From the NCBI RefSeq assembly GCF_014117325.1, contig NZ_CP059732.1:5283001-5347000 (forward strand): a DNA stretch of 64,000 nucleotides. The letters run 5' to 3'. Below, one piece after another: positions 41,603 through 64,000 of this stretch. Made by a program: the position numbers and the translations under genes. How positions within the stretch are numbered: position 1 is the first letter of the stretch; every line of letters begins with the position of its first letter. The notes beneath the pieces were generated by a model. That model did not search any database, had not been told where the DNA came from, and saw nothing but the letters and a program-made list of their open reading frames with translations. The stretch is from Spirosoma foliorum (GTDB taxonomy: Bacteria > Bacteroidota > Bacteroidia > Cytophagales > Spirosomataceae).

Positions 41603-42481
41603 GTGAACACGAAACGTAGAACTTTTCTTCAGACAGTCGCCGGATTAGTCAGCCTAAGTGCCTTACCGGGTCTGGCTACGGTAAAAGCCCCTAAGAAGCC
41701 ACTGGTGGTGTTTGTTACTGGCGATCATGAGTACAGTGGCGAACTAACATTGCCACTCATTGCCGCTGAACTTGAGAAAAACTACGGCATGAGGACTAAA
41801 GTCCTGAAAGCTTACCCAGATTATAATGGCGAAAAAGATATTCCCGGCCTTGAAGCTCTAAAAGAGGCCGATCTGGCCGTTTTCTATCTCCGCTGGCGTC
41901 AACTTCCTAAGGAGCAACTTCAGTTTATTGACGACTATCTGAAATCAGGAAAACCAGTCATGGGCTTCCGGACAACAACCCATGCGTTCAACTATCCCGA
42001 AGGCGATCCACGCATACGCTGGAACTCCTTTGGCGAGTTTGCCTTTGGCGCACCTCCGGGCTGGGGTGGCAAGGCACAGCATACGCACTACGGCCATAAA
42101 AGCACAACCGATGTGACGATCATCCCTGAAGCGGCAAAGAATCCTATTCTGACGGGTGTTGAACCAAGCTTTCATGCATCATCCTGGTTATACCGCGTTC
42201 AGCCCGATTATCCGGCCAAAGGATCAACCTGGTTGCTGATGGGTAAATCTGTGAACCCCGATAAGCCAGCCATCGAAAACCCCGTTGCCTGGACCTGGAA
42301 AAACGAATGGGGCGGCAAAGCTTTCCTGACCACGCTGGGGCACCCCGAAGATTTTCAGGTCGAATCGTTTCAGCGGTTAGTTATCAATGCGATTCATTGG
42401 GAGTTAGGGCTGCCAATCCCGAAGAAATGGAAAGGAAAAATTGACATCAATGTGCCCTACGGCCACCCCCAAAAACCTTGA
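41603..42481 (+). CDS. Secreted ThuA-domain protein
   Basis: 292 residues from a GTG at 41603, chosen because it opens an export signal (NTKRRTFLQTVAGLVSLSAL, Tat-like). The much longer frame to 41489 reads through low-complexity upstream sequence. The ThuA fold is a class I glutamine-amidotransferase-like domain: KPLVVFVTGDHEYSGELTLP at the start, AYPDYNGEKDIPGLEALKEA, KPVMGFRTTTHAF, and the GHKSTTDVTIIPEAAKNPIL loop. ThuA acts in the 3-ketotrehalose pathway in rhizobia; here it is secreted. It is three bases from the next gene and surely co-transcribed. Confidence 0.88.
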   Translation: MNTKRRTFLQTVAGLVSLSALPGLATVKAPKKPLVVFVTGDHEYSGELTLPLIAAELEKNYGMRTKVLKAYPDYNGEKDIPGLEALKEADLAVFYLRWRQLPKEQLQFIDDYLKSGKPVMGFRTTTHAFNYPEGDPRIRWNSFGEFAFGAPPGWGGKAQHTHYGHKSTTDVTIIPEAAKNPILTGVEPSFHASSWLYRVQPDYPAKGSTWLLMGKSVNPDKPAIENPVAWTWKNEWGGKAFLTTLGHPEDFQVESFQRLVINAIHWELGLPIPKKWKGKIDINVPYGHPQKP

Positions 42482-42484
42482 TTT

Positions 42485-45400
42485 ATGAAATCGTTTGTTT
42501 CTCGAAGAACTAACATCTATAGCGTACTCCTGGTCGTCGTTGCTGTACTCATCGGATTTAGTGCTTTTCAGTCAGGCCAACTGTCGAGTTCAGGCAATGC
42601 CTTTCAGCCGATTACGCTGAAGAAAGGCACCCATATCAGTCTGATTGGCAACAATTTGGGCTCTCGGATGATGAACTACGATCATTTTGAGACTGAAATG
42701 CAGGTTCGTTACCCTGATGACCAGCTCTTCATCCGTAACATGTGCGATCCGGGCGATACACCTGGTTTCAGACCCCGTTCGAGCCGATTCTTGCCCTGGG
42801 CCTTTCCCGGTGCCGAGCGTTTTCAAACCGAATACGCCAATCCGTCGGATAGTCAGGGCCAGTTTGAATCGCCCGACGAATGGCTAACCCGGCTCAAAAC
42901 CGATGTGATCATTGCTTTTTTTGGCTACAATGAATCCTTCCAGGGTAAAGCGGGTCTGGCCAATTACAAAGCCGAACTGGATGCCTTTATCAAGCACACG
43001 CTGAGCCAGAAATACAATGGCACAACAGCTCCACAACTGGCCATCGTATCGCCCATCGCGTTCGAGAATTTATCCGACAAATACGATCTGCCGAACGGCA
43101 AAACCGAAAACGAGAACATTTCGCTTTATGCGAATGCCATGAAGGAAGTGGCGGAGAAAAACCATGTTCTTTTTGTTGACGCTTATGCCCCCTCGCAACA
43201 ATGGTACAACACCACTGCCGAGCCACTGACAATTGATGGTTCTCAGCTTACCGATGAAGGCTATAAAAAGCTTGGCCCTCTACTCGTCGATCAAATTTTC
43301 GGCAAATCGTCGCCTAAAGCCGAATCCAGACGGAAACTGGTTTACGATGCCGTTATGGAGAAAGACTGGATGTTTCATAACGACTATAAAATTCCGAATG
43401 GCGTTCACGTCTACGGTCGTCGGTACAACCCATTCGGGCCAGACAATTACCCGGCTGAAATCGAGAAAATCCGGCAGATGACGGCCATTCGGGATACGGC
43501 GGTATGGCTTGCAGCTTCTAAAGGGGAGAAAATGGACATTGCCACGGCCGATGAACGAACGAGAAGACTGCCTGAAGTAAAAACCAATTTTAACCCGGAG
43601 AAAAACGGCAGTCTGACATATCTGTACGGGCAGGAAGCGTTGAGCAAGCTTAAAGTGCCACAGGGCTATAAAATCGAATTGTTTGCCTCCGAAGAAGAGT
43701 TTCCCGATCTGGCGAAACCCATGCAGATGTCGTTCGATAACAAGGGGCGACTTTGGGTAGCGGCCATGCCAAGTTATCCGCACTACAAACCCGGCGATCC
43801 TAAACCCAATGACAAAATCCTGATCCTGGAAGATACCAACGGCGACGGTAAAGCGGATAAACAAACGGTTTTTGCTGATCATCTGCACCTTCCGCTTGGT
43901 TTCGAAATCGCGAAAGAAGGCGTTTATATCTCGCAGGGGCCGAATTTGAAGCTTTTCACAGATACGAATGGCGATGACAAAGCCGACAAAAGTGTGATTC
44001 TGATGAGTGGCTACGACGATCATGACACCCACCACAATAGCCATGCTTTTTGCGTCGACCCATCCGGTGCCATTTACTCCGGCGAAGGGGTGTTTTTGCA
44101 CACTAACGTCGAAACTTCGTATGGTCCTGTTCGCGCTACCAACGGAGGATTTTACCGTTACGCGCCCCAACTGCACAAGCTGGAACGCACAGCGCAACTC
44201 TCCATCCCGAATCCCTGGGGTATTGCTTTTGATGACTGGGGACAACCGTTCTTCGCCGAAACTTCCAGCCCGGATGTTCGCTGGATGATGCCCGGTTCGG
44301 TGTTGCCTCGCTATGGCGAATACACGCACAAATCAGTTCAGTTGGTGGAAGAAGCGCATCGGGTTCGGCCTACGTCTGGTCTGGAATTTGTATCCAGTCG
44401 CCATTTTCCGGATGATATTCAGGGCGATTTCCTGATTAACAACACCATTGGATTTCTGGGAACGAAAGAACATACGCTCGTCGACGATGGAACCGGCTAT
44501 AAGAGCAAACACCGCGCCGATCTGGTTGTGAGTGAAGACCGTAATTTCCGGCCTGTCGATATGGAGTTTGCACCTGATGGTTCACTCTATCTGATTGATT
44601 GGCACAACATTCTAATCGGCCACATGCAGCACAACGCCCGCGATCCCCTGCGCGACCATTCGCACGGTCGGGTGTACCGGATTACGTATCCATCGCGCCC
44701 GCTGGTAACACCCGCTAAAATTGATGGAGCCAGTATTGAGCAATTGTTGGATAATCTCAAGCTGCCTGAATACCGTACTCGCTACCGCACACGTCGTGAA
44801 CTTCGCGGTCGGGATGCATCGGAAGTACTGGCTAAATTGAAAATCTGGGTAGCTGGTCTTGACAAAAAAGACCCGCGTTACGAGCACCATCTGCTGGAAG
44901 GCTTATGGGTGAGTTGGGGTATGGACAAAGTCGATCAAACCCTACTCCGGCAAGTTCTGAAAGCCAAAGATTACCACGCCCGAGCCGCTGCGGTTCAGGT
45001 AGTTCGGTACACGGGACATCAGGTAAAAGATCAGGCCGATCTGTTGATGCAGGCCGTTAAGGACGAGAACAGTCGGGTTCGATTAGACGCGATTGTGGCT
45101 GCCTCCTGGATCGGCAAGGAAAAAGGACTGCCCATCCTGGCGGAAGCTGCTAAAAAGCCACTTGACGATTGGATGATTCACGCTTATGATGCCGCTGTGG
45201 CGCACCTCAAGGGAGAAAACGTAAAGAAAGAGAAAGAAGTCGTAGAGAAGTCAACCTTGAAAGGGTCAGAACTGGCGCTGTATAATTTGGGCAAGCAAAT
45301 TTATGCCAAGGAAGGCTATTGCACCACTTGTCACCAGCCTGATGGAAAGGGTCTTGCAGCCTCTGGATTCCCTCCACTTACGGGCACCAACTGGGTCTCG

Positions 45401-45682
45401 GGCAATGAAGAGCGATTGATCAAAATCGTTCTGAAAGGTGTGATGGGTCCTATTGAAGTCGTAGGCAAAAACTACCCCGGTCAGGTGCCAATGACTCCCT
45501 TTGGCGGCTTATTAAAAGACAATGAAGTCGCGGCAGTACTGACGTATGTACGAAATTCATTCGGCAACAATGCTTCACCTATTACACCTGAAAAAGTGAA
45601 GCAAGTCAGAGCGGCCACAGAACGTAAAAAAGATTTCTATTCACCGGATCAGTTGCTGAAAGAACATCCAATGGAGAAGTAA
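42485..45682 (+). CDS. SGNH - PVC-type dehydrogenase - HEAT - cytochrome c fusion protein
   Basis: 1065 residues, N-terminal membrane anchor/signal (about 12-27). An SGNH/GDSL-like domain (about 37-270) has GNNLGSR at block I where a GDS is expected, GYNES at block III, and DGSQLTDEGY at block V where His is expected, so the Ser and His of the triad are both absent. Then the PVC-type heme-binding/dehydrogenase propeller (about 385-750; ILILEDTNGDGKADKQTVFA and repeated DTNGD blades), HEAT-like repeats (about 770-910), and a C-terminal cytochrome c, CTTCH at 946-950. Periplasmic, probably transfers electrons from sugar oxidation. Second gene of the ThuA operon. Confidence 0.88.
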   Translation: MKSFVSRRTNIYSVLLVVVAVLIGFSAFQSGQLSSSGNAFQPITLKKGTHISLIGNNLGSRMMNYDHFETEMQVRYPDDQLFIRNMCDPGDTPGFRPRSSRFLPWAFPGAERFQTEYANPSDSQGQFESPDEWLTRLKTDVIIAFFGYNESFQGKAGLANYKAELDAFIKHTLSQKYNGTTAPQLAIVSPIAFENLSDKYDLPNGKTENENISLYANAMKEVAEKNHVLFVDAYAPSQQWYNTTAEPLTIDGSQLTDEGYKKLGPLLVDQIFGKSSPKAESRRKLVYDAVMEKDWMFHNDYKIPNGVHVYGRRYNPFGPDNYPAEIEKIRQMTAIRDTAVWLAASKGEKMDIATADERTRRLPEVKTNFNPEKNGSLTYLYGQEALSKLKVPQGYKIELFASEEEFPDLAKPMQMSFDNKGRLWVAAMPSYPHYKPGDPKPNDKILILEDTNGDGKADKQTVFADHLHLPLGFEIAKEGVYISQGPNLKLFTDTNGDDKADKSVILMSGYDDHDTHHNSHAFCVDPSGAIYSGEGVFLHTNVETSYGPVRATNGGFYRYAPQLHKLERTAQLSIPNPWGIAFDDWGQPFFAETSSPDVRWMMPGSVLPRYGEYTHKSVQLVEEAHRVRPTSGLEFVSSRHFPDDIQGDFLINNTIGFLGTKEHTLVDDGTGYKSKHRADLVVSEDRNFRPVDMEFAPDGSLYLIDWHNILIGHMQHNARDPLRDHSHGRVYRITYPSRPLVTPAKIDGASIEQLLDNLKLPEYRTRYRTRRELRGRDASEVLAKLKIWVAGLDKKDPRYEHHLLEGLWVSWGMDKVDQTLLRQVLKAKDYHARAAAVQVVRYTGHQVKDQADLLMQAVKDENSRVRLDAIVAASWIGKEKGLPILAEAAKKPLDDWMIHAYDAAVAHLKGENVKKEKEVVEKSTLKGSELALYNLGKQIYAKEGYCTTCHQPDGKGLAASGFPPLTGTNWVSGNEERLIKIVLKGVMGPIEVVGKNYPGQVPMTPFGGLLKDNEVAAVLTYVRNSFGNNASPITPEKVKQVRAATERKKDFYSPDQLLKEHPMEK

Positions 45683-45694: not shown

Positions 45695-45770
45695 TGTAAA
45701 ATGCATAATGGACAATGAATAAGGAAAGTACTCACCCTGTCATTATCCATTGTTCATTATGCATTTTACA
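45695..45770. repeat. TGTAAAATGGATAATG-family inverted repeat
   Basis: Left arm at 45695-45723 (TGTAAAATGCATAATGGACA...) and right arm ending at 45770 (GTTCATTATGCATTTTACA). Fills the gap between the large fusion gene and the epimerase gene, so these may not be one uninterrupted transcript. Confidence 0.75.
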
Positions 45771-45797
45771 TTTACTTATGCCCTAATACCCTTAATC

Positions 45798-46664
45798 ATG
45801 CCTAATTCAATAGTTTCACCTGTCGGCTTCAACGTATTAGCCTGGACAGCCGTAATGTCCGAAAAACTGAACCCGCTCACGGAGCGTCTTAAAACCATTG
45901 GTTACGATGGAATTGAGTGCTTTGTCGATAACACCGATGTTGCCGTATACCGACAGTTTGGCGATCATTTGAATCAGCTTGGCTTGCAAAGTACCTGCGT
46001 GGTGGTGGTTGGCCCCGACGAAAATCCGGCTAGTGATTCCGCTAAAATTCGGGAGCAGGCTGTCGATTTTTTGAAAGGTGTCATTGACCGGGCTCATGCC
46101 ATGAATGCATCGGTGCTTTGTGGACCTTTTCATTCTGCTTTTGCGACATTCACCCGACGCGAACCACAACCTGACGAATACGCCCACAGTGCCGAAGTGT
46201 TACACATTGTCGGCGATTACGCCAAGCAGGCAAACATCATCCTGACGCCCGAAGCACTAAATCGCTTTGAGTGTTATCTGTGCAATACTATGGAGCAATT
46301 GTCGCATCTGATACACATGGCCGACCATTCGAATGTTCGGGCGATGTTCGATACGCACCATGCCAATATGGAGGAAAAGCGTTTTCCGAAAGCAATTCAG
46401 ACTATTGCTCCCGTTCTGGCACACGTACACATCAGCGAAAATGACCGGGGAACACCTGGTGATGGCCATATCCCCTGGGATGATACCTTCCGAACACTGG
46501 CCGAAATCGACTATAAAGGCTGGATGACAATTGAAGCCTTTACTCGCAATGACATTGATTTCGCCAACTCGATCAATGTCTGGCGCGAATACAACGACCC
46601 TTGGGACATCGCCGAAAACGGCCTCAAATTCATCAAAGCCATGCAGGCTAAATATGCCAATTAA
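45798..46664 (+). CDS. D-tagatose/D-psicose 3-epimerase-like sugar isomerase
   Basis: 288 residues from ATG 45798; an upstream frame to 45750 lies in the repeat. TIM barrel of the AP-endonuclease-2/xylose isomerase-like family. Metal ligands in the expected order: Glu in ILTPEALNRFECYLC, Asp in RAMFDTHHANMEE, His in HVHISENDRGTPGDGHIPWD, and Glu in MTIEAFTRND. The PEALNRFE stretch is characteristic of D-tagatose 3-epimerase relatives, which act on C3 of ketoses. It fits a pathway of 3-keto or ketose intermediates. Cytoplasmic; no signal. Confidence 0.87.
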   Translation: MPNSIVSPVGFNVLAWTAVMSEKLNPLTERLKTIGYDGIECFVDNTDVAVYRQFGDHLNQLGLQSTCVVVVGPDENPASDSAKIREQAVDFLKGVIDRAHAMNASVLCGPFHSAFATFTRREPQPDEYAHSAEVLHIVGDYAKQANIILTPEALNRFECYLCNTMEQLSHLIHMADHSNVRAMFDTHHANMEEKRFPKAIQTIAPVLAHVHISENDRGTPGDGHIPWDDTFRTLAEIDYKGWMTIEAFTRNDIDFANSINVWREYNDPWDIAENGLKFIKAMQAKYAN

Positions 46665-46768: not shown

Positions 46769-47722
46769 CTATTTCAGAAACTTGGCCAGGTTGTCTTTCG
46801 TCACTAACTGAAACGGGATGAGCGTTTCTTTATCATACGCCTGCCCCTTGGCAGCTTTTACTGCCGTTTCAATCGCTTTAGAGCCCTGTTCTTCCGCATT
46901 TTGGAAAACGGTAGCGTCCAGCGTTCCCTTCTTAACGGCCTGTAGTCCGTCGGGAATGGCGTCGATACTCACGACAATTACTTTGTCTTTCAAACCGGCA
47001 TCGGTCAGGGCTTTTACAGCGCCTAATCCCATTTCGTCGTTTTGTGCAAATACTGCATTGATCTGGGAACCATACGACTGAATCCAGTTCTCCATCAAGG
47101 ACATGGCTTTCGCCCGATCCCATTCGCCCGTTTGATGGGCGAGAAGTTTCAGGTTTGGGTATTGTTTCAGCACTTCACGAGCGCCCTGCTCCCGCTTGAT
47201 TTGCGCGGCCTGCCCCATGTAACCGTGCATCATCAGCACATTGCCTTTACCACCCAATTTCTCCGCAATGTATTTCATGGCAATACGAGCCGACTCCACG
47301 TCATCGGAACCAACAAAAGCCGAGGGTTTTGCGCTCGTTTCTGAGTTTACGTTGATAATCGGAATGTTAGCCGCCAGCGCTTTCGTCACGGCTGGCGAAC
47401 TCGCTTCCACTTCGCAGGGGTTCATAATAATGGCATCGACTTTCTGAGCGATAAAGCTCTCGATCTGTTCCACCTGTTTCAACGCCGACCGTTCGGCATC
47501 GACGGTAATCAACTCAACTCCATCGGCTTCTGCTTTTTTAACCATCGCATCGTGCACATTCACGATGAACTCATTTTGCATGCTGAGCATCGAGACGCCT
47601 ACCACGAGCTTTTTACCATCGCCCTCCTGCCCTTTTTCGCTGGAAGATGATTGGCTACAGCCTGTTAATAGAAATATGCTGAAAAGATAATAGCTAACAA
47701 ATCGTGTGTAGGTCTGTCTCAT
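46769..47722 (-). CDS. Periplasmic-binding lipoprotein of a ribose-type ABC importer
   Basis: 317 residues from ATG 47722, opening a lipoprotein signal (SYYLFSIFLLTGC, Cys22); an upstream start at 47746 is less likely. Ribose/galactose-type binding protein: KKLVVGVSMLSMQNEFIVNV, DAIIMNPCEVEASSPAVTKA, PIINVNSETSAKPSAFVGSD, the helix-strand to VFAQNDEMGLGAVKALTD, and VIVVSIDAIPDGLQAVKKGT. It captures a monosaccharide in the periplasm for the permease encoded just upstream. It is the last gene of the three. Confidence 0.92.
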   Translation of the reverse strand: MRQTYTRFVSYYLFSIFLLTGCSQSSSSEKGQEGDGKKLVVGVSMLSMQNEFIVNVHDAMVKKAEADGVELITVDAERSALKQVEQIESFIAQKVDAIIMNPCEVEASSPAVTKALAANIPIINVNSETSAKPSAFVGSDDVESARIAMKYIAEKLGGKGNVLMMHGYMGQAAQIKREQGAREVLKQYPNLKLLAHQTGEWDRAKAMSLMENWIQSYGSQINAVFAQNDEMGLGAVKALTDAGLKDKVIVVSIDAIPDGLQAVKKGTLDATVFQNAEEQGSKAIETAVKAAKGQAYDKETLIPFQLVTKDNLAKFLK

Positions 47723-47737
47723 TAGAGTTTTACTTTT

Positions 47738-47811
47738 CAGTCGCATAGCGACTAAATGTTTGTAGAAAATAAAAATATTGAATTTTTAACTGGTCGCGTA
47801 GCGATCAAATG
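47738..47811. repeat. Direct pair of TCGC-TAGCGA elements within the ABC operon
   Basis: CAGTCGCATAGCGACTAAAT at 47738-47757 and TGGTCGCGTAGCGATCAAAT at 47791-47810, in the same direction and 53 bp apart. Each is a small palindrome followed by AAATG, as in the elements at 3535 and 59278. The first continues TTTGTAG, close to TTTATAG. They lie in the gap between the permease and the binding-protein genes. Confidence 0.6.
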
Positions 47812-47813
47812 AA

Positions 47814-48794
47814 TCAACCATTCTTTCCATGTTTCAAACTGTCCAGCACTACGGCGCCAATGATGATAGCGCCCATCACGACTTGCTGGTAATAGGATGT
47901 TACATTCATCAGATCAAGACCATTGCTGATAACGCCGATCAGTAAAGCACCCAACAGCGTTCCGGTCATGGTTCCGGCCCCGCCCGACGTGCTGGTTCCG
48001 CCGATGATCGCAGCCGCAATGGCATCTAGCTCAAACCCTGCTCCGGCATTGGGTTGGCCGGTTGTAATCCGGGAAGTCAGCAAGATTCCGGCTAAGGCAG
48101 CCAGTCCACCGCATAGGGTATAAACGATCATTTTGACCTGCTTCAACTCAATTCCCGATGCCTTAGCTGCCTGTTCGTTTCCGCCCACTGCGTACATATA
48201 ACGACCAATTACGGTTTTCCGCAGAATAACGGTGCAGATGGCAAAGAACACAACAAGGATGATAATCAGTGTGGGCACGCCAAGTACTTTGCCTCCACCT
48301 ATAAAATTAAACGAATCGGACAGGTTAGAAATCGGACGTCCTTTACTCAGGATCAAGGCTAGTCCGCGGCCAATGGTCATGGTCCCCAACGTAACAATAA
48401 AGGGAGGAACTTTCGTACGAGTCACGACAAAACCGTTGAATGCCCCAAAAAGCAGGCCCGCCAGCAAGCCAATTACTATTGGAACGATAACCGGATACGT
48501 ATCAGCGTGGGCAAACGAAGCGGCTACAACGCCCGTAACGGCAACAATCGAACCGATAGACAGATCGATACCACCTGTGATGATCACAAACGTAACGCCA
48601 AAGGCCAGCAACGCATTGATCGACACCTGTGTGACAATAATCATCAGGTTCTGAATCGTAAAAAATCGGGGTGTCGTTATCGAAAGAGCAATACAAATCG
48701 CCACCAGAACAATCAGAAGCACATACCGGCCAACATTACCGATGCGTATTTTACCGTAATAGTCACCCTTATTAAGCGTAATGTCTTTTTCCAT
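47814..48794 (-). CDS. Ribose-type ABC transporter permease
   Basis: 326 residues from ATG 48794; a GTG seven codons upstream is less likely. About eight to ten hydrophobic segments. Signature of the branched-chain/ribose permease family: GGIDLSIGSIVAVTGVVAAS, the NGFVVTRTKVPPFIVTLGTM stretch, the AVGGNEQAAKASGI cytoplasmic loop that contacts the ATPase, and the INSIDE motif region GTSTSGGAGTMTGTLLGALL. Forms the membrane channel with the ATP-binding protein 115 bp upstream. Confidence 0.93.
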   Translation of the reverse strand: MEKDITLNKGDYYGKIRIGNVGRYVLLIVLVAICIALSITTPRFFTIQNLMIIVTQVSINALLAFGVTFVIITGGIDLSIGSIVAVTGVVAASFAHADTYPVIVPIVIGLLAGLLFGAFNGFVVTRTKVPPFIVTLGTMTIGRGLALILSKGRPISNLSDSFNFIGGGKVLGVPTLIIILVVFFAICTVILRKTVIGRYMYAVGGNEQAAKASGIELKQVKMIVYTLCGGLAALAGILLTSRITTGQPNAGAGFELDAIAAAIIGGTSTSGGAGTMTGTLLGALLIGVISNGLDLMNVTSYYQQVVMGAIIIGAVVLDSLKHGKNG

Positions 48795-48909
48795 GTATTG
48801 TAATTTATTGGCCACTTTGGCTTCTACGGATTCTTAGATTCTTTTTGATTCTATTGCCCTGAAACAGTCCATTTTTATCACTCAATACAAATAGAATCAC
48901 CAGAATCAT

Positions 48910-50409
48910 TTACTGCTCCATTGCATAGTGCATGATCGTTTCTTGTGTGGCCTCTTTCGTTGAAAAGAGTGCAGTTTGTTTTCCCTGCGACAAAACAAGT
49001 ATCCGATCACTCATGCCGAGCAGTTCGGGGAGTTCGGATGAGATCAGGATGATTGCAGTACCAGATTCTTTCAGTTGATTGATGAGTTTATAAATTTCAG
49101 CCTTAGCACCAATGTCAATACCTCGGGTTGGTTCATCAAGGATGATGAGCGATGGAGAAGAAAGCAGAATTTTACCGATGACTACCTTCTGCTGATTTCC
49201 TCCACTAAGTTGTAAAACCGGTTGATCAAGACTGGACGCTTTGATTCGCAGGTTCGTCATCATTGCGCCGGCGACCTCCGATTCACTTTTTGCCTGAACC
49301 AAAAGCCCTTTTGCATACTTGGGCAACGTGGTCAGGGTAATGTTTTCCCGAACCGACAGGTGAGGAATGAAACCAAATTGTTTACGATCTTCACTAACGT
49401 AGCCGATACCATGCCGAATGGCATCCTGTGGTGTATTTATCGTGACCTTTTCTCCCTTTATGAATAGCTCACCACTGTCGGCGGGATCAAGGCCATAAAT
49501 GGCGCAGGCCACCTCGGTCCGCCCCGCTCCCATTAGGCCAGCAATACCCAGTACTTCGCCTTCGTGAACCACGAAATTGATGTCAGAGAATTTGCCGTTT
49601 CGGCTCAAGTGCTTTACTAATAGTACTTCTTTGCCCGATTGGGCTGTGGAGTCGGGGAAGAGCGTGTCGATCTCACGACCCACCATCATCGTAATCAGGG
49701 TATGTATATCAAGTTCGGCAGCTGGTTTGGTGGCCACGTATTTTCCATCCCGAAGCACCGTAATGGTATCCGCAATGGCGAAAATCTCCTCCATTTTGTG
49801 GGAGATATAAATAATGGCAACGCCCTTCTTTTTCAGATCGCTAATGATACCGAACAGGGTCGCCACTTCTTTATCAGACAAGGCCGATGTGGGTTCGTCC
49901 ATGATGATGACCTTGGCGTTGTTTGAGATAGCTTTGGCAATTTCAACCATCTGCATCTGCGCCACACTGAGGTATTTCATCTGGGTATCAGGACGTATGT
50001 TTACGCCCATTTGCCGAAGGAGTTGGCCTGCCTGCTCTGTTATAGTCCGGTCGTTTAACCAGCTGAACAGCTTTCCTTTTGCTTCTCGACCCAAGAAGAT
50101 ATTTTGTGCGACCGTCAATTCAGGAACGACCAGCATCTCCTGATGAATCATGGAAATGCCCTGCTTAATCACCTCTCTGACATGACTAGCGGTTAGGTCG
50201 TTGCCATCAAAACTGATTTCACCAGCATCAGGTTTCAGGAGTCCAATCAGAAGCTTCATCAGCGTAGACTTCCCAGCTCCATTTTCTCCCATCAAGGCAT
50301 GAACCTCTCCCCTACGGATGTTCAGTTGAACGTCGTCCAAGGCCACCACACCCGCGAAGATTTTCGTCAGTCCACGTACCTGAAGGATGTAGTCTTGGGG
50401 AGAAGCCAT
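48910..50409 (-). CDS. Ribose-type ABC transporter ATP-binding protein (two-domain)
   Basis: 499 residues with two tandem ABC domains. First: Walker A GENGAGKS at 41-48, signature-like LSVAQMQMVEIAKAIS and Walker B VIIMDEPTSALS. Second: degenerate Walker A GLMGAGRTEVACA, as in RbsA/MglA, then LSGGNQQKVVIGKILLSSPS, LIILDEPTRGIDIGAKAEIY. Start ATG 50409. Order ATPase-permease-binding protein on one strand indicates one import operon. Substrate is a monosaccharide or small sugar derivative, possibly the product of the outer-membrane SusCD system upstream. Confidence 0.93.
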   Translation of the reverse strand: MASPQDYILQVRGLTKIFAGVVALDDVQLNIRRGEVHALMGENGAGKSTLMKLLIGLLKPDAGEISFDGNDLTASHVREVIKQGISMIHQEMLVVPELTVAQNIFLGREAKGKLFSWLNDRTITEQAGQLLRQMGVNIRPDTQMKYLSVAQMQMVEIAKAISNNAKVIIMDEPTSALSDKEVATLFGIISDLKKKGVAIIYISHKMEEIFAIADTITVLRDGKYVATKPAAELDIHTLITMMVGREIDTLFPDSTAQSGKEVLLVKHLSRNGKFSDINFVVHEGEVLGIAGLMGAGRTEVACAIYGLDPADSGELFIKGEKVTINTPQDAIRHGIGYVSEDRKQFGFIPHLSVRENITLTTLPKYAKGLLVQAKSESEVAGAMMTNLRIKASSLDQPVLQLSGGNQQKVVIGKILLSSPSLIILDEPTRGIDIGAKAEIYKLINQLKESGTAIILISSELPELLGMSDRILVLSQGKQTALFSTKEATQETIMHYAMEQ

Positions 50410-51875: not shown

Positions 51876-52907
51876 TTAAGCCTCGTACCAGCCGTGTGCT
51901 TGGCGGACTTTGATCATGGTCGCCAGAATATCGTTCCAGGTCTGCTGGTTTGTCATCACCGAATTCGGGAACATACAGCCATCCCAGCAGATGTGTTTGA
52001 ACGCTTTGGTCAGAACGCCATTTTCGTCGCGCAGCCAGTAACCTGCATCATGAACAACATCGAGTTTGCCATTGGGGTCTAATGCCTGGCAGTGACGGCC
52101 CGTTTTATCGTGCGAACCGGAGCCAAAGACTGTTCCGTCGTTTTGGGCGACGTGGAAGTCGATAGTCCAAGGGCGCAATGCATTCGTTAAGGTCTTGAGC
52201 GCTTCTTCCAGCGTAGCCCGGTCGCTCCAGTCGAAGTCAGGCGGTAAAATACGATCCTGTTCGCGGTTGTAGCCCATTGTGTACAGCAATGTATGCGCCA
52301 TGTCGGCCTGGAAGCCCATGTTTGGTCGATCAACCAATTCCAGCGTTTCGAGCATGGTTTTCCAACTGTGCATACCGCCCCAGCAGATTTCCCCCTCGGC
52401 CGCCAGTTTTTCACCATATTCAGCCGCTACATCGCAGGCTTCGCGGAAGGTTTGGGCAATCAATTTGGTGTTTCCGGTCGGATCAGCGTCCCAATCATGC
52501 GGAGAACTGGCCGAGTCGATACGCACAACACCACTGGGGCGAATTCCGAGTTCGGTGAGTTTCTGGCCGATATGGCAGGATTTGCGAACCATCTCAACAA
52601 AGTTGGCGCGATCTTCTTTGCTACCCATCGCTGGACCACCCCAGATTGGCGCCACCAGCGAACCAATTTTCAGGTTATAACCGCCTACTTTATCGGCCAG
52701 TCGTTTGATCTCATCGTCCGATATATTCACATCGATATGCTCGAAAAGAGCCAGATCGACGCCGTCGAATTTCACGCCATCCACTTCAGCACCCGCTGTC
52801 AGTTCCAGCATGGTATCGAAGCCAACAACAGGTTCGGAATCGGGGCCTTTGCCAACAACCCCCGGCCACATGGCGTTGTGGAGTTTAGGATAATTATTCT
52901 CGTTCAT
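51876..52907 (-). CDS. Xylose-isomerase-like TIM-barrel sugar isomerase/epimerase
   Basis: 343 residues from ATG 52907; a longer frame to 52988 is repeat sequence. TIM barrel with metal ligands in order: Glu in [19 protein letters not shown], Asp in [16 protein letters not shown], His in [17 protein letters not shown], and the Glu/Asp region after [37 protein letters not shown] is typical of this family's glucose/inositol-degradation members. Cytoplasmic. It probably interconverts or cleaves a keto-sugar made by the neighbouring Gfo/Idh enzyme; which reaction is not shown by the sequence. Confidence 0.87.
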
Positions 52908-56199: not shown

Positions 56200-56214
56200 G
56201 TCAATTTTAGTTTT

Positions 56215-56287
56215 GTAGCGCGGACATCCTGTCCGCATAGCATAGGTTGTTTTATCTACGGCTATGCGGACAGGATGTCCGAGCTAC
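56215..56287. repeat. GCGGACATCCTGTCCGC inverted repeat
   Basis: 27-bp arms at 56215-56241 and 56261-56287, one mismatch, each with the palindromic GGACATCCTGTCC. The right arm ends four bases from the cytochrome protein's stop codon. Confidence 0.88.
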
Positions 56288-56290: not shown

Positions 56291-58984
56291 TTATTTCCCT
56301 TTCGAGCCTGCCTTATATACATCGTTATTCTGATTGCCACCCGCTTTCAGATAGGCAATCAAATCCTTTAATTCATCACCGTTCAGGCTATTGATCAGAC
56401 CGGGAAGCATAACCGACTCTGTCGAATATTTTTTCGACGTCACAGTGCTTTTGGGAACCTTACGAAGTTGATCTGGCGCAAACGGATTCTGAGAAATAGA
56501 GTAATTCACCTTGTCTTCACTAACTAACCGACCAAGCACAGACTGTCCATTTTTCAGGTAGAAAATAGTAGATGCATACTGATCAGAAACAGCCTTGTTA
56601 GGATTGATTATCGCTTCCAGAATATCCTTGTTGGAGAATCGAGTGCCTAGTTGTGTCAGGTCAGGACCGATATCCCCACCTTGACCACCCATCGAATGGC
56701 AACGGCTGCACAAGATAGCCGAGTAGATTTTTTGACCCGTAGCAAAGTCACGAGTTCCTGATCCACTATCAACAATCGCGACGGCTTTTTCCAGTTTCCA
56801 TTGACGACCAGGGCCTTTAGGCGAATAATCACTAACAATATCATTCCCGGATGCAGTCAGTAAATCGGCTCCCGATAGTTTATTGTACTTTTCAAACTGA
56901 TCTTTCGGTACGTGATTCAGGGCCAGCTTACGAGCTTTGTCAATGAAGCCAATGTAGCTGCGGCCACCCTGATATTTGAACGCTTTAGCAAACCAGGAAA
57001 AATACCGATCCCACAGGGCTGGCGTCCAGCCTGTATTGGCGCTACTCAACATGGTGGCGTAGTAAGTTTGCTGAGCTGGGGGAAGTTTTTCCAGCATTTT
57101 GGCGATATCAAGTCCGTACTGAGGGTTACGTAAAATCAGGTCACTCGACGCAGTAACTGTCTGACCACCCACGGGCCCTATATCTTCATTATTTTTATCG
57201 AGCAGAGCTAAGGTTTTCTCAATCACACCTGGAGCGTCAAATGAGATCAGCAACTTGCTATAAGCGCGATTCAATACCGCTGTTTTAGCTGGATAACGTG
57301 GACTCAGATACGCAATTACCTTTGCTTTATCAGCTCCTTCTGGCAACCCAGCACGCGTACATACGAGTTCGATAGCTCGCATTACATCCAGTTGTTGGGT
57401 CTCGGTAAGCGGATCAAATTTGATCTTCAGAAGGGTATTCAACATCTGGCTTTTCAGGGCTGGATCACCATGACGAGCTAATGCGATGATAGCATAGGTA
57501 GCGCGTACGGGATCGGTTTCGGCGAGTGCCTTGGCCTGCCACTGACTAACGGGCTGATGTTCAACGGCAATGCGAGCGGCATAGCGAATAAAGCGATCTG
57601 GATGGTTCAGGTATGGCCAGGCAGCTTCAATAGCACCAGCCATTGGGTCACCGTGATATTGCTCCAGTTTCGTTCTAATCTGATGTTCAGGAGTGAGGGT
57701 TGGTGCCTGCGTATTAGCCGCTACCGACTCCGTACCTGTGTACGTAACCCGGTACAGATCGGACTCCAGTCGGCGACCACCCGTTAAGAAATAAACCGCG
57801 CCATCGGGACCCACCAGACCATCGGTTAATGGCAGTGGTGATCCAGAGATAAACTCTTCGGCTGTAGCACTATAGGTCGACCCCTGAGGCTGTAGGTGAA
57901 CGGCATACATAATGCCGAAACTCCAGTCGAATGCATAGACGGCTTTCTGGTATTTCTGAGGGAAACGTGCTCCTCTACCGGCAAACACACCCGTCGGAGA
58001 GCCTTGGCCCATATTTAAAACAGCAGGCAAACAATCGGCAAACGTGGGCGACCAGTTGCTGGCAGCTGTACGCCAGCCAAATTCAGCTCCACTCGTGATG
58101 TGGCAAATACGGGTTGGCTTATACCAGGGCAGACCGAAATCCCACTCCATGTCCGAATCGTAACCAATTACATCGCCAGCATCGTTAAAATCGAAGTCGA
58201 AGGTGTTCCGGAAACCAGCGCCCATCAACTCCCACTTCTGTCCATCAGGATCGATTTTGGCTAGCCAACCACCCGGCGCCATCCGATCGGTAGCGTGTCC
58301 ACGAGGGTCTTTAATGGCGGGAAATAGGTTATCTTCTTTCCAAACGGGTGGTAACCGATAAGCGTCCATTTTAGGGACGTCCGTGAAATTACCACACATG
58401 AGGTACAGCGACTTGCCATCGGGCGAGAGTTTTATGCTGTGTGGACCATGCTCACCTTCTCCTTTCAGTGATTTCAGAAGAGTTACGGTCTCAAATTGAT
58501 CATCGCCGTCTTTATCCTGAAGGCGATAAAGGCCGCTCCCTTTCCCGAAGTTTTTATTCTCCCGGTTGTTCACCATTACATAGAGGCTGTTGAAAGCATA
58601 CAACAAGCCCTGCGCATAACCCATACCTACTGTGGTATCGCCTGGTTGAACGTTTCCAACTTTCAGTTTTTCAATTTTAGGCTGCTGTACACCAGAACCG
58701 ATAGGTGGCAATTCCAACCGATACAAAAAACCATACTGATCGGAGGTGATCATACGGCCCTTGTTATCAAAAGCCATAGACACCCAGGAACCCTGTTTAT
58801 TGTCGGAGGGACTGTAAAGATGCTCAGCTTTGAAGCCGGGCAACAGTTTCAGTTTGTCGAGCCTGGGGTTGTCGGCCTTGGTTGCCTCGGATGACACTCC
58901 GCGCATATTAACCCAGGAGGCCCCAATCAGAACGATGGCCGAAACGGCAAGCATCAACTTGGCTGGTCTGTAGGTAAAAAACAT
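56291..58984 (-). CDS. PVC-type dehydrogenase-propeller/cytochrome c protein
   Basis: 897 residues from ATG 58984; a frame to 59080 has a non-native leader. Signal/anchor at about 8-27. Propeller of the PVC-type heme-binding/membrane-bound dehydrogenase kind (about 45-440): ITSDQYGFLYRLELPPIGSG, YDSDMEWDFGLPWYKPTRIC, then HEAT-like helical repeats (about 480-700) and a C-terminal cytochrome c with CSRCH at 759-763 and later Met ligand region. Unlike the protein at 42485 it has no SGNH domain. Likely a periplasmic electron acceptor for sugar oxidation. Confidence 0.87.
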   Translation of the reverse strand: MFFTYRPAKLMLAVSAIVLIGASWVNMRGVSSEATKADNPRLDKLKLLPGFKAEHLYSPSDNKQGSWVSMAFDNKGRMITSDQYGFLYRLELPPIGSGVQQPKIEKLKVGNVQPGDTTVGMGYAQGLLYAFNSLYVMVNNRENKNFGKGSGLYRLQDKDGDDQFETVTLLKSLKGEGEHGPHSIKLSPDGKSLYLMCGNFTDVPKMDAYRLPPVWKEDNLFPAIKDPRGHATDRMAPGGWLAKIDPDGQKWELMGAGFRNTFDFDFNDAGDVIGYDSDMEWDFGLPWYKPTRICHITSGAEFGWRTAASNWSPTFADCLPAVLNMGQGSPTGVFAGRGARFPQKYQKAVYAFDWSFGIMYAVHLQPQGSTYSATAEEFISGSPLPLTDGLVGPDGAVYFLTGGRRLESDLYRVTYTGTESVAANTQAPTLTPEHQIRTKLEQYHGDPMAGAIEAAWPYLNHPDRFIRYAARIAVEHQPVSQWQAKALAETDPVRATYAIIALARHGDPALKSQMLNTLLKIKFDPLTETQQLDVMRAIELVCTRAGLPEGADKAKVIAYLSPRYPAKTAVLNRAYSKLLISFDAPGVIEKTLALLDKNNEDIGPVGGQTVTASSDLILRNPQYGLDIAKMLEKLPPAQQTYYATMLSSANTGWTPALWDRYFSWFAKAFKYQGGRSYIGFIDKARKLALNHVPKDQFEKYNKLSGADLLTASGNDIVSDYSPKGPGRQWKLEKAVAIVDSGSGTRDFATGQKIYSAILCSRCHSMGGQGGDIGPDLTQLGTRFSNKDILEAIINPNKAVSDQYASTIFYLKNGQSVLGRLVSEDKVNYSISQNPFAPDQLRKVPKSTVTSKKYSTESVMLPGLINSLNGDELKDLIAYLKAGGNQNNDVYKAGSKGK

Positions 58985-59107
58985 AATCGTATTGAGTAAG
59001 TAAGTTAATATCGTGCCGGGTTGGCGGTTAGTCGGATGGTAAAGCGGACAATCTATGCATAAAGCGCCTTTAGAGGGCAATATACCGGCTTTTTCGAGGC
59101 TGGTAGA

Positions 59108-59389: not shown

Positions 59390-60907
59390 TTAAAAATTCG
59401 GTGTTAGGGCAGCCTCAACAGCAGGCAGGCCATAATAATCATCCAGAACCGTGAATGCGTTTGGTGGTGGAACTGCACCCGCTGGGAAATAATAGGCCGC
59501 CGGATTCGCTTTTACTTTAGCCCCATACGCACCAATGATTTCCTTCACGCGGCCTGTCCGGGTCAAATCGAACCAGCGTTTGTTCTCGAAGGCAAGCTCA
59601 ACACGTCTTTCTTTGAAAATAGCTTCCCGCATATCGGCCTGAGACGATGCCGTTGTGGCTGCCAGTCCTGCACGGGTCCGTACCTGATTCAGATAAGGAG
59701 CAGCCTCACCCGTTTTACCTTGCTCGTTTAACGACTCTGCCAGGAACAACAGCACCTCAGCGTAGCGATATACGGGCCAGTTCTGACCAGTATTTTGGTT
59801 CAAAGAGTGTACCCGTGCGTATTTTTTGATGTACGGATACGTTTTGTCAGCTCGCAAGCTTCCGCTTAATGTTACATAACCGATAGAAATATCTTTCCGC
59901 TTATCGCCGGTTTCGTAGGCAGCAATCAGATCTGGCGTCGGAATATTATTACTCTCCTGAGATGTTGGTTGTGGGTTCGATGTGCCAACAATAGGCGCTA
60001 TCTCGGCAGCAGAGATCGGCGAAGGCAGGAACCGATAAATCTGGTTACCGTTATAGCCAGCCGAACCTTCCATATACTGAATTTCAAATATCGACTCCGA
60101 ATTATTCTTATTGGTGCTGGTAAACGAAAAGGCGTTGTTATAGTCGGCCTGTAGTGTATAACCATCAATCGTTTTCAGGACTGCTTCAGCCTGCGCCCAT
60201 TTTTTCTGTGTGATATACAGGTTTGCCAACAGGGTTTTAGCCGCTCCCGATGTAGCCCGACCAAGATCCGTTGCGGCTTGTGCAGCTTTACTTTGTAAGC
60301 CTGTGCTGGCAGCAAGCGCATCTTTTTCAATCTGAGCGTAGATCGCGTCTGTTGTAGCCAGAGGTAAGGCCGCATCTTCACGACCGGTAACTGGCACTAA
60401 ATGCAAGGGGACTTTACCGAACAAACGAACCAGATCGAAGTAGGCGAAAGCTCTCAGAAACAGAGCTTGCCCCTTCAGGTTATTTTTTGACGCATCCGAA
60501 GAAAACGTTATCCCGGCGCCGTCGATAAGCGACAGAATCTGATTGGCACGGGCAATAATCACGTAGTTCAGTCGATACTGTACCAATACGTTATCATTGG
60601 CCGTAACACCATTAGCTGTTGGAACGGCAAAATCAGCCACGTTTTCGGTTGGGTCAACCGCTCCATAGAGTGTATTACGGGCATAATAGGTATTATCGGA
60701 GTGCATTTCCTCTAAAACCCAGGCTCGCTCGTTATACATCTGCCGAAAGGGTACATAAGCCCCATTGACAGCCTGCTGAAAGTCGGCTTCGGTTTTGAAA
60801 AACGTAGCTGAGCTCAGCGCCGTTTCGGGAACTACGGTCAGGAAATCTTTGCTGCAACCGGTTAAGGCAAGTGCTAAAAGCCAGGTCGCTATATATCTAT
60901 TTTTCAT
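59390..60907 (-). CDS. SusD/RagB-family outer-membrane lipoprotein
   Basis: 505 residues with a lipoprotein signal (MKNRYIATWLLALALTGC, Cys18). SusD fold: LSSATFFKTEADFQQAVNGA, LRAFAYFDLVRLFGKVPLHL, a helical TPR-like scaffold, LTRTGRVKEIIGAYGAKVKA, and PYLNQVRTRAGLAATTAS in the C-terminal half. It captures glycans at the cell surface and forms a lid over the SusC channel. Encoded 122 bp downstream of SusC; specificity cannot be read from the sequence. Confidence 0.95.
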   Translation of the reverse strand: MKNRYIATWLLALALTGCSKDFLTVVPETALSSATFFKTEADFQQAVNGAYVPFRQMYNERAWVLEEMHSDNTYYARNTLYGAVDPTENVADFAVPTANGVTANDNVLVQYRLNYVIIARANQILSLIDGAGITFSSDASKNNLKGQALFLRAFAYFDLVRLFGKVPLHLVPVTGREDAALPLATTDAIYAQIEKDALAASTGLQSKAAQAATDLGRATSGAAKTLLANLYITQKKWAQAEAVLKTIDGYTLQADYNNAFSFTSTNKNNSESIFEIQYMEGSAGYNGNQIYRFLPSPISAAEIAPIVGTSNPQPTSQESNNIPTPDLIAAYETGDKRKDISIGYVTLSGSLRADKTYPYIKKYARVHSLNQNTGQNWPVYRYAEVLLFLAESLNEQGKTGEAAPYLNQVRTRAGLAATTASSQADMREAIFKERRVELAFENKRWFDLTRTGRVKEIIGAYGAKVKANPAAYYFPAGAVPPPNAFTVLDDYYGLPAVEAALTPNF

Positions 60908-60935: not shown

Positions 60936-61030
60936 AATGAATAATGTAAAATGGATAATAAACGAATTTACTTCTACACCATGTCATGAACTTGGAGTCA
61001 TTGTTCATTATCCATTTCACATTATTCATT
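60936..61030. repeat. TGTAAAATGGATAATG-family inverted repeat
   Basis: 24-bp arms at 60936-60959 and 61007-61030, one mismatch (AATGAATAATGTAAAATGGA...). The right arm overlaps the stop codon of SusC by one base, so it fills exactly the SusC-SusD gap. Confidence 0.85.
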
Positions 61031-64000
61031 TAGAAATTAAGGTTGACGCCCATGGTATACGTACGTGGAACTGGGTAGTTCGAGAAATCAACCCCCTGGC
61101 TCAAATTGTCGCCTGGGCCATCGCCTGCACCGTTACCACTAGTTTCTGGATTCGGGCCACCCCAATATTTCGTGAATATATAGACCTGCTGAACCGACGC
61201 GTATACGCGAGCCGATTTGAAGAGCTTGTTGACCGCTCCAATGTTATAGCCCAGCGTTATGTTTTTGATCGTGAAAAACGACGCGTCAGCCAGGAACTGC
61301 GAGCTATGCCAGTCACGCTCAATACCGGTGTAGTTACCACCGTTGTTCGTTGCCCCAAACATACCTGCCCCTGGAGTAATCACGGTGGTTGCTACGCCAA
61401 CACCATTGATCATGGAATTCTGAACTCGGAAACGGTCTTTTACGCCTTCAACCATGTTGAATACAGCATCCAGGTTAGCGGTGCTATATAAGTGGCGAAC
61501 CCAAAGCTGGTTACCGTAGGAGCCAGACCCCGTGATCGAGAAATCGAAATTGCCGTATTTCAGGTCATTGGTAATCCCGTAGGTGAATTTGGGGAATGGG
61601 CTACCAAGAATAGTCCGGTCATCAGCATCACCACCATTCGTAATAACACCATCGCCGTTTATGTCTTTAAATTTGATGGTACCAATAGCCGAACGACCAG
61701 GAATGACCGGAGAACTCTTAAGCTCTTCCGCAGTCATGTAATACCCCTCTTTAACCAGACCATAGAATTGGCCGAAAGGCTTACCAACCTGTGTAATATG
61801 GAAGCCCGTACCACCGTATACCCGATCAATACCAGGAGCCAGCGATACAACCTGGTTACGGTTAAATGAAATGTTGGCGTTGGTTGTCCATTTCAGTTTA
61901 CCTACTGAGTTTTTGGTCGTCAGCGAGAATTCATGCCCCCAGAACTTAATCTCTCCAATGTTATCAGGGAAGTTAACAAAGCCGGATTCCTGTGGCACCT
62001 GTACGTTATACAGCAGGTTGGTTGTCCGCTTTGTATAAAAATCGTAAATGAACTGGATACGATCGTTCAATAAACCCAGATCAAGACCAATGTCGAACTG
62101 CTTTGTCGTTTCCCAGCCCAGATTTGGGTTAGCCAGCGATGTGACAACAGCTCCCGTAGCAACCGTGCTACCAAATACGGCATTGGTTGTATTGTTCACC
62201 AACGCATACGATGTGTAGTTACCGATGTTGTTATTACCGATTACGCCATAACTAGCCCGAACTTTGGCAAACGAAACGGGTAGCACTGATTTCATGAAAT
62301 CTTCGTCTGATACTACCCAGCCCACCGAAGCTGATGGGAACGTACCAAACTTATTATTGGCGCCAAAACGAGACGAACCATCCGTACGAACAGCCGCCGT
62401 AAACAGGTATTTGCCTTTATAGTTATAGGTCAAACGAGACAGGTAAGAAGTCAATGCCCATTGGTTGATGCCATTGTTTGTACCACCCCGGTTTATATTA
62501 AGTGCTCCCTGAATTGTTGGCAGCCGATCATCGGCATACGTATCAGCCTGAATCCGACTAAACTCCTGACGATAGTACTGATTAGTAAAACCAGCCAGCA
62601 ACTCGAAGTTGTGATCGTTAAAGCTACGGCTATAGGTAGCTAAGTTTTCGTTCAGCCAGGACGTATTTTCCAATCCCTGACGAATCGAAACAGCGGTGGT
62701 TGGAATGGGTACGTTGATAGCGCTGGTGGCTGTCGACGGGTTAAAGAAGAAGAATTTAGAATTCTGATATTCGATGTTCATCGTCGACCGAAGGGTTAAT
62801 CCTGTGATCGGCCGATATTGGATATAAGCGTTTGCCAGCAAGTTTGTATTCTTGGTCTCATTGATCAGTTCCTTAGCAGCCCGCACCCAGTTTGGATACT
62901 GGAAAATATTACCTGTACTAGCTGGGAACTGGTTGAATTTAGTTAGCTCGCCATTCGCATCGTAAATAGGCATAACTGGCCATGTGTGCAGGGCGTTAAA
63001 CAAAATCCCGGTTCCGCGGTCACCATCAGTCCGGGGTGTATTGTCGTATACATAGGAAGGTGCGACGTTAAAGCCAATCGTTACTCGATCCGATATATTG
63101 TAATTTGAGTTCAGACGTAGTGAGTACCGTTTGTAATTATTGTTAAGCACTACCCCATCCTGATTCAAAACACCAGCTACCAAGGATGTATTGGACTTAC
63201 CTGTGTTGCTGGAAATACTGAGGTTGTAGCTCTGAATAGGCGCAACTCGCAGTAAAGCGTCATACCAGTCGTTATTTTTCCCTTCGTATTGAGATGGATT
63301 TTGAAACTCGACCGGTACAGCCTGCAACTGGTCTTCGTAATATTCTTTCTTAAACTGAGCAAACTGAACAGCATTCAACATTTTCACCCGACCTTTCATC
63401 GGCACCTGCTGTACACCTGCAAATGTGTTAAAGCTAATGTTTGTCTGACCAGGTTTCCCTTTTTTGGTGGTAATCAGCACAACTCCGTTAGCTGCCCGCG
63501 AACCATAGAGAGAAGTTGAAGCAGCATCTTTCAAAATCGAGAGATCTTCAATCTCATCAGGGTTAAGTTGGGCAATGTTGCCCGTGATTGGGAAACCATC
63601 GACTACGTAAAGCGGGTCACTACCAGCCGAAACTGATACCTGCCCCCGGATACGAATACTGATACCCTGACCTGGTTTACCAGTGGCCTGGTTGATTTGC
63701 ACACCTGCCAGACGGCCTTGCAGTTTTTGGCCAATCTGCGATACGGGTAAATCTTTAATTTCTGCCGCGCTTACGGTTTGTACAGCACCCGTGATTTCTT
63801 TTTTCAACTGACTACCGTAACCAACAACAACGACTTCGTTCAGAGTCTGATCATCAGGTGTCAGTGTTACATTTACCGACGTTTGATTACCAATCAGTAC
63901 TTCTTTACGCGCATATCCAACAAAGCTAAACACCAGTACCGAACTGGTACTAGGCGCTACAAGTTTGAAACTCCCGCTTGCGTCGGTGTTGGTACCCTGA
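61030..64000 (-). CDS. SusC/RagA TonB-dependent outer-membrane transporter, 5' end missing
   Basis: At least 989 residues in the window; it continues past 64000. The frame is open to the very end: 63934-64000 encodes part of the N-terminal carboxypeptidase-regulatory-like domain (NTDASGSFKLVAPSTSSVLV then FSFVGYARKE). Next the plug domain: LNEVVVVGYGSQLKKEITGA, LQGRLAGVQINQATGKPGQG, ISIRIRGQVSVSAGSDPLYV, VDGFPITGNIAQLNPDEIED. A 22-strand barrel follows, ending NYPVPRTYTMGVNLNF. It imports glycans with SusD under TonB energy. The internal methionine at 63933 is not the real start. Confidence 0.95.
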   Translation of the reverse strand, partial: QGTNTDASGSFKLVAPSTSSVLVFSFVGYARKEVLIGNQTSVNVTLTPDDQTLNEVVVVGYGSQLKKEITGAVQTVSAAEIKDLPVSQIGQKLQGRLAGVQINQATGKPGQGISIRIRGQVSVSAGSDPLYVVDGFPITGNIAQLNPDEIEDLSILKDAASTSLYGSRAANGVVLITTKKGKPGQTNISFNTFAGVQQVPMKGRVKMLNAVQFAQFKKEYYEDQLQAVPVEFQNPSQYEGKNNDWYDALLRVAPIQSYNLSISSNTGKSNTSLVAGVLNQDGVVLNNNYKRYSLRLNSNYNISDRVTIGFNVAPSYVYDNTPRTDGDRGTGILFNALHTWPVMPIYDANGELTKFNQFPASTGNIFQYPNWVRAAKELINETKNTNLLANAYIQYRPITGLTLRSTMNIEYQNSKFFFFNPSTATSAINVPIPTTAVSIRQGLENTSWLNENLATYSRSFNDHNFELLAGFTNQYYRQEFSRIQADTYADDRLPTIQGALNINRGGTNNGINQWALTSYLSRLTYNYKGKYLFTAAVRTDGSSRFGANNKFGTFPSASVGWVVSDEDFMKSVLPVSFAKVRASYGVIGNNNIGNYTSYALVNNTTNAVFGSTVATGAVVTSLANPNLGWETTKQFDIGLDLGLLNDRIQFIYDFYTKRTTNLLYNVQVPQESGFVNFPDNIGEIKFWGHEFSLTTKNSVGKLKWTTNANISFNRNQVVSLAPGIDRVYGGTGFHITQVGKPFGQFYGLVKEGYYMTAEELKSSPVIPGRSAIGTIKFKDINGDGVITNGGDADDRTILGSPFPKFTYGITNDLKYGNFDFSITGSGSYGNQLWVRHLYSTANLDAVFNMVEGVKDRFRVQNSMINGVGVATTVITPGAGMFGATNNGGNYTGIERDWHSSQFLADASFFTIKNITLGYNIGAVNKLFKSARVYASVQQVYIFTKYWGGPNPETSGNGAGDGPGDNLSQGVDFSNYPVPRTYTMGVNLNF

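Follow-up and report, generated by a model that had tools for sequence, protein, structure and literature searches.

A conserved four-gene core within a candidate two-compartment locus for oxidative glycoside catabolism in Spirosoma foliorum

To understand how Spirosoma foliorum (genome of 8.85 Mb, one contig) may use glycosides, we analysed a window of 64,000 nucleotides (NZ_CP059732.1, positions 5,283,001 to 5,347,000), in which a SusC/SusD pair, as found in polysaccharide utilisation loci, lies with a DUF1080 protein, two propeller-cytochrome c proteins, a ribose-type ABC importer and a four-gene core. The core encodes DUF4432, a 407-aa phosphomannose-isomerase (PMI)-like protein, a 344-aa TIM barrel and a Gfo/Idh dehydrogenase resembling levoglucosan dehydrogenase. 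This locus is real and well conserved. We give an even chance to the reading that it is a two-compartment, GntR-headed system of oxidative glycoside catabolism, similar to published 3-keto pathways that combine oxidation with elimination or hydrolysis. Following this logic, SusC/SusD would carry a glycoside across the outer membrane. In the periplasm the propeller-cytochrome c proteins, which resemble soluble glucose dehydrogenase (sGDH), would oxidise it, most likely at C3, perhaps joined in this species by an exported BT2158-like Gfo/Idh. DUF1080 would then cleave (or hydrate) the keto product, the ribose-type importer would bring the keto-sugar or the remaining sugar into the cytoplasm, and the core (LgdA-like Gfo/Idh, 344-aa barrel, PMI-like isomerase and mutarotase-like DUF4432), together with a ketose-3-epimerase-like barrel, would return it to an ordinary hexose.

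The 407-aa protein (53009..54232, minus strand) has at least 8000 database relatives. It scores at least 600 bits in 72 of 149 related genomes, with 9 more at 19 to 30 bits and none in 68. We compared 80 genome-contig loci from Spirosoma, Larkinella, Dyadobacter, Pontibacter, Maribacter, Zobellia, Chitinophaga, Sphingobacterium and other genera; these are the best 80 of at least 589, so close relatives are over-represented, and the protein is 79–99% identical across them. A readable open reading frame (ORF) for it was present in 79, and 55 had 9 kb on both sides. The complete core was found in 52 of these 55 full-flank loci by our ORF filter and is really present in 53, as the barrel of one locus (L072) is hidden by a longer antisense ORF and blastp shows it at 76% identity. 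In 52 of the 55, the 407-aa gene has DUF4432 immediately upstream, and in 47 it has the TIM barrel immediately downstream. The core occurs together with DUF1080 in 50 of 55 loci (50 of the 52 with a complete core); set against 21 DUF1080 matches in the 8.85 Mb of the S. foliorum genome, a rough yardstick without a matched control, this association is beyond chance. A propeller-cytochrome of the type at 56291..59080 occurs in 39 of 55 loci, and the combination of core, DUF1080 and propeller-cytochrome in 37. SusC with SusD occurs in 27 and a complete ABC importer in 19 of the 55. Accessory genes differ from locus to locus. The comparison of gene order across Spirosoma and its relatives that the initial annotation had called for thus supports the locus, with the core kept in 52 of 55 loci and the array headed by a GntR gene in all 20 same-genus genomes read. 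In nineteen of the 80 loci (L098 and 18 others, 11 of them from Dyadobacter) an alpha/beta-hydrolase-like protein accompanies a further TIM barrel, about 278 aa long, near the core, both named by reading; L172:14886-16082 encodes an FG-GAP repeat protein that by eye looks like one found close to the core in 13 of the 80.

Within the core, the Gfo/Idh dehydrogenase (50608..51771, minus strand) matched PDB entries 4h3v (E 1.1e-102) and 6a3f (E 9.9e-83), with LQDW, WR, AGSG and GD..H stretches aligned, and also the scyllo-inositol/L-glucose dehydrogenase 5ya8 (E 8.2e-46). Against the BT_2158 family model NF058561 it scored 37.2 bits (cut-off 750). The 344-aa barrel (51876..52910, minus strand, length from its likely start; PF01261) was modelled (m2c6ce09c2a70), and its fold is tied among IolE, ketose 3-epimerases and the Agrobacterium enzyme AtHYD (8ro4), with IolE first by Z. 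Its sequence profile had no significant match in the PDB (best E 0.47); a single-sequence PDB search returned none for the barrel and a chance-level match for the 407-aa protein (E 0.2). The latter, previously called mannose-6-phosphate-isomerase-like, has no Pfam or NCBIfam match, and the label draws its support from database names and a conserved metal-ligand pattern, in which the Q-H-E-H residues of a PMI paralogue line up with H134, H136, E152 and H220. DUF4432 (54263..55315, minus strand; PF14486, 328.3 bits) is aldose-1-epimerase-like (PDB 3ty1, E 2.2e-19). Plasmid records hold three homologues of the 407-aa protein and none of the 344-aa barrel; one Arthrobacter plasmid relative (L128:14953-16158, 32% identity) lies beside dihydroxyacetone kinase, RpiB, TPI-like and ribose-type ABC genes. 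Searches of the open literature (subscription papers and preprints fell outside this scope) turned up no report of the four-gene core, and nothing on this subject for DUF4432 as judged by titles and abstracts.

For the two propeller/cytochrome proteins recognised in the initial annotation, Pfam identified both cytochromes and the first propeller, whereas the second propeller comes from a structure model (m249a0e190f60), Pfam detecting the cytochrome part alone. The first protein (42485..45682, plus strand) combines SGNH (PF13472), DUF7133/Piru_Ver propeller (PF23500), HEAT (PF13646) and cytochrome c (PF00034) domains, and scored 228.1 bits against TIGR02604 (cut-off 122.2). The second (56291..59080, minus strand) joins an sGDH-like propeller to HEAT-like helices and cytochrome c (PF00034, 29.7 bits, cut-off 21.3); it scored 90.5 bits against TIGR02603 (cut-off 68.15) and 74.7 bits against TIGR02604, below the cut-off of 122.2. 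Each has one CxxCH and a hydrophobic leader, and the two propellers are related (hhalign probability 96, E 3.2e-9, 194 columns). As modelled, the propeller of the second protein has the fold of sGDH-type sugar dehydrogenases. Neither protein matched the GSDH model PF07995 at E 0.001, and a genome-wide search with that model likewise gave no match at either place. A profile of the second propeller aligned with four GSDH proteins of the same genome (4 of 19 matches used) at probability 83 and E 9.6e-7 in a global-type run, and at 50 and 1.6e-4 in a local run. In both runs R291-N292 faced an RN pair, and a His-rich segment lined up with an HxG(S)R stretch; in GSDH proteins these stretches, with two C-terminal arginines, are associated with PQQ binding. 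The first propeller (14 of 20 sequences used after a length filter) aligned with the GSDH set too weakly for reliance (probability 28, E 6.3e-4, 156 columns). Alignment A1 held 33 of 54 homologous ORFs, and alignment A2 held 32 of 68. Single-sequence PDB searches gave no matches for the propeller regions; matches were confined to the cytochrome parts of both fusions and, in the first, to HEAT-type repeats and weakly to a lipase (E 0.049).

Compartment signals were read with a simple hydropathy and motif script, not a trained predictor, and in part by eye. The script found hydrophobic leaders or lipoboxes in DUF1080 (55420..56238, minus strand; PF06439, 116.1 bits, cut-off 26.8), both propeller-cytochromes, SusD (59390..60907, minus strand; PF07980, 126.2 bits; lipobox) and the ribose-type binding lipoprotein (46769..47746, minus strand; PF13407; lipobox LTGC). 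By reading, SusC (61030..64000, minus strand, continuing to about 64233 past the window end; TonB plug PF07715) has a leader at its start at position 1234 of the adjoining sequence L009. The ThuA-domain protein (41489..42481, plus strand; PF06283, 51.4 bits, cut-off 33.4) has a twin-arginine-like leader after its likely true start, the GTG at 41603 directly before KRRTFLQ, and is probably exported; the script, which used the longer ORF, did not flag it. For the 407-aa protein, DUF4432, the Gfo/Idh and both barrels the same script gave lower hydropathy and no export motif, with a modest margin (1.39 for the epimerase-like barrel and 1.51 for the ABC ATPase, against 1.66 for the binding protein). 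These signals suggest that SusC/SusD, DUF1080, ThuA and both propeller-cytochromes are exported and that the core is cytoplasmic, with the ribose-type importer between them.

This distribution bears on the oxidative 3-keto reading of the initial annotation, which survives in part. The conserved association of DUF1080, LgdA-like Gfo/Idh and isomerases, the sGDH-like propeller-cytochrome, a BT2158-like Gfo/Idh outside the window (below its family cut-off) and the lack of a glycoside hydrolase domain by Pfam speak for it, whereas the window Gfo/Idh as periplasmic oxidant, with haem proteins as its electron acceptors, is not supported: this enzyme is unlikely to feed a periplasmic DUF1080, because the script shows an export signal for DUF1080 and none for the enzyme. 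A cytoplasmic NAD-type Gfo/Idh would not pass electrons to periplasmic haem. The candidates left for oxidation in the periplasm are the propeller-cytochromes and the exported Gfo/Idh. ThuA had been tied to 3-ketotrehalose; a broad Pfam match and a twin-arginine-like leader are all that it shows, so this role does not follow.

Pfam and NCBIfam upheld the remaining family assignments, namely SusC/SusD, ThuA, DUF1080, Gfo/Idh, DUF4432, the ribose-type ABC genes and the two TIM barrels. From the right, the minus-strand genes (64000-46769) run SusC, SusD, second propeller-cytochrome, DUF1080, DUF4432, 407-aa protein, 344-aa barrel, Gfo/Idh and importer, and the plus-strand genes (41489-46664) run ThuA, first propeller-cytochrome and ketose-3-epimerase-like barrel. 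With their 3' ends facing each other at 46664/46769, the halves, which had been taken as divergent, are convergent. The importer comprises the binding protein (RbsB model 175.7 bits, below the cut-off of 337), a permease (47814..48815, minus strand; PF02653; ribose permease model 296 bits, below the cut-off of 398) and an ATPase with two ABC domains (48910..50409, minus strand; PF00005 in 2 stretches). The D-tagatose/D-psicose 3-epimerase-like barrel (45750..46664, plus strand; PF01261) scored 152.8 bits against NF051856, below the cut-off of 300, and matched PDB 7ern (E 5.5e-32). The locus has one ThuA and one DUF1080, rather than a set of each on both strands; a second window DUF1080 (10610-11455) lies 30 kb away, beside an esterase-family gene (the pair within 9251-11455). 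Genome-wide matches numbered 21 for DUF1080 (20 over the cut-off), 19 for GSDH (18 over the cut-off) and 37 to 40 for Gfo/Idh.

The array runs past the end of the window. To the right of SusC on the same strand, L009 encodes a PSCyt-type cytochrome, DUF1501, DUF1549/1553 and a bifunctional rhamnulose-1-phosphate aldolase/dehydrogenase (over its cut-offs), followed on the opposite strand by a GntR regulator and an exported-looking Gfo/Idh (L009:15590-17092). This Gfo/Idh, the genome's best match to the BT2158 family NF058561 (499 bits, cut-off 750), has a twin-arginine motif (SRRQFI) and a hydrophobic stretch by the same script; another BT2158-like Gfo/Idh (482.5 bits) lies about 3 kb from a DUF1080 gene (G000:C1:8180527-8185412). 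The DUF1549/DUF1553-type cytochrome gene (L009:9603-12042) consists of two overlapping ORFs (435 and 407 aa), possibly through a frameshift, where the relative L156 has one ORF of 786 aa. For PSCyt/DUF1501-type relatives in Verrucomicrobia, PMC5615132 gives the function as unknown and reports an inverse relation to glycoside hydrolase (GH) density. The absence of a visible GH domain was borne out beyond the window: Pfam found no GH or polysaccharide lyase domain in the 14 window locus proteins or in 13 flanking scans, which covered 10 L009 proteins and, from the 20 kb that follow, 3 of the 7 non-overlapping ORFs that reach 150 codons (one of the 3 being the full form of an L009 fragment).

Of 30 same-genus genomes with strong matches, upstream DNA was read in 20, and further upstream for the 11 of these without a regulator in the first stretch. 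A GntR-type regulator (82–97% identical) heads the array in all 20, directly beside SusC in 9 and beyond cytochrome/DUF1501 genes in 11, 6 of which have an extra SusC/SusD pair between regulator and array. From this position, the GntR protein may control the array. The aldolase-dehydrogenase is at the array head here and in 3 of the 20 relatives; L-rhamnose as a general substrate, which this gene suggested, was set aside because so few relatives carry it there.

A number of results weigh against 3-keto catabolism at this locus. The window Gfo/Idh falls short of the levoglucosan dehydrogenase family (NF052479, 348.9 bits, cut-off 650), as the exported one does of the BT2158 family; the latter gene adjoins the regulator in 3 of 20 same-genus genomes (3 of 11 and 0 of 9), and therefore lies outside the general system. 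A second Gfo/Idh that could act as an LgdC-like reductase is absent from the 14 window locus proteins, the next one being beyond the regulator. The likeness of the 344-aa barrel to AtHYD is tied with epimerases and IolE and escapes its sequence profile, and the barrel at 45750-46664 resembles ketose 3-epimerases. Opposite the two C-terminal GSDH arginines the second propeller has P and T, and no pqqE scored over the cut-off in this genome or in 14 control genomes, a search without a positive control. Neither propeller-cytochrome was found within the flanks of 14 of the 52 complete-core loci. A rival reading is the catabolism of a particular sugar, cyclitol or sugar acid through different reactions, either oxidation at C1 to give a lactone or C2/cyclitol oxidation, in which DUF1080 would be a binding or ordinary hydrolase domain and the core would carry out isomerase and dehydrogenase steps on a free rare sugar. 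The ribose-type importer, the proximity of the Gfo/Idh to 5ya8, the first rank of IolE by Z (though tied), the aldolase/dehydrogenase at the array head here and in a few relatives, and the neighbours of the Arthrobacter 407-aa relative all suit such chemistry, which however leaves DUF1080 in 50 of 52 complete-core loci and the BT2158-like neighbour unexplained; we consider it unlikely, if a serious contender.

The lack of a GH domain also does not imply the lack of a glycoside-cleaving enzyme, because Lac161_ORF7, with the same named domains as the protein at 42485-45682, is reported to hydrolyse lactose (PMC5342196). The propeller-HEAT-cytochromes could thus themselves be an unrecognised glycoside-cleaving family, with the other enzymes processing the freed sugars. 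Against this, the lactose assay may reflect an oxidative reaction, one of the two propellers has a sugar-dehydrogenase-like fold, and both propeller genes are missing from the flanks of 14 of the 52 complete-core loci; we regard the idea as improbable. That the genes are mere neighbours without a joint function is hardly credible: the genome is rich in DUF1080 and Gfo/Idh matches and accessory genes vary between loci, but the core genes retain the same order and strand, with DUF4432 and the barrel flanking the 407-aa gene as described above.

We return to 3-keto catabolism, a recently recognised alternative to glycosidases, of which the locus is most likely a two-compartment Bacteroidota variant. 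The retention of the core in many Bacteroidota with its frequent tie to a propeller-cytochrome (39/55) makes the role of the haem protein testable. A bolder proposal, which we advance tentatively and with more doubt than confidence, is a widespread Bacteroidota pathway in which sGDH-like propeller-HEAT-cytochrome c fusions would take the place of glycosidases and of flavin or NAD dehydrogenases. They would oxidise glycosides in the periplasm and deliver the electrons directly to the respiratory chain, and a conserved cytoplasmic core, containing DUF4432 and a new member of the PMI superfamily, would deal with the 3-keto sugars. In that case the propeller-cytochromes and the 407-aa family would gain a physiological function.

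Several known systems resemble parts of this locus; among them is the BT2158 cluster of Bacteroides thetaiotaomicron, whose BT2156-2159 genes are reportedly the subject of a 2024 Nature study. In comparison with sGDH/Asd and AA12 sugar dehydrogenases (PDB 2ism, 3a9g, 1qbi, 6h7t), the protein at 56291-59080 is missed by the Pfam GSDH model, has two aligned arginines replaced, carries fused helical and cytochrome domains, and is encoded in a genome with no pqqE over the cut-off. The levoglucosan pathway LgdA-LgdB1-LgdB2-LgdC of Bacillus smithii (PMC7676230) shares a Gfo/Idh nearest LgdA among the scanned models, TIM-barrel 'isomerases' and an adjacent sugar ABC importer. Here, however, there is no recognisable LgdC, the Gfo/Idh is below the family cut-off, and PMI-like and DUF4432 proteins, an exported DUF1080, SusC/SusD and cytochromes are added; the candidates for lgd-type eliminase and hydratase are the two TIM barrels, one with the AtHYD fold (tied with epimerases and IolE). 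The Agrobacterium tumefaciens GlycDH/AtOGE/AtHYD operon (PMC10628242) follows the same logic of oxidation, elimination, hydration and reduction with two TIM barrels and a Gfo/Idh, and the 344-aa barrel has the AtHYD fold, but a flavin GlycDH stands there in place of propeller-cytochromes, and no DUF4432 or PMI-like partner was seen in the accessible text. With the periplasmic glycoside 3-dehydrogenase BT2158 (PMC11300592; BT2157 in PMC9007349) the locus shares DUF1080 and a BT2158-like Gfo/Idh that looks exported, here outside the window and beside the regulator in 3 of 20 relatives, and differs in its haem proteins, inner-membrane importer and cytoplasmic core. Caulobacter lacABC with DUF1080 (PMC9007349) is likewise a cluster that pairs extracytoplasmic oxidation and DUF1080 with a reductase and sugar epimerases; its dehydrogenase is the membrane LacABC, in contrast to the sGDH-like propeller-cytochrome c fusion here, and the DUF1080 near LacABC offers an independent precedent for extracytoplasmic oxidation coupled with DUF1080.

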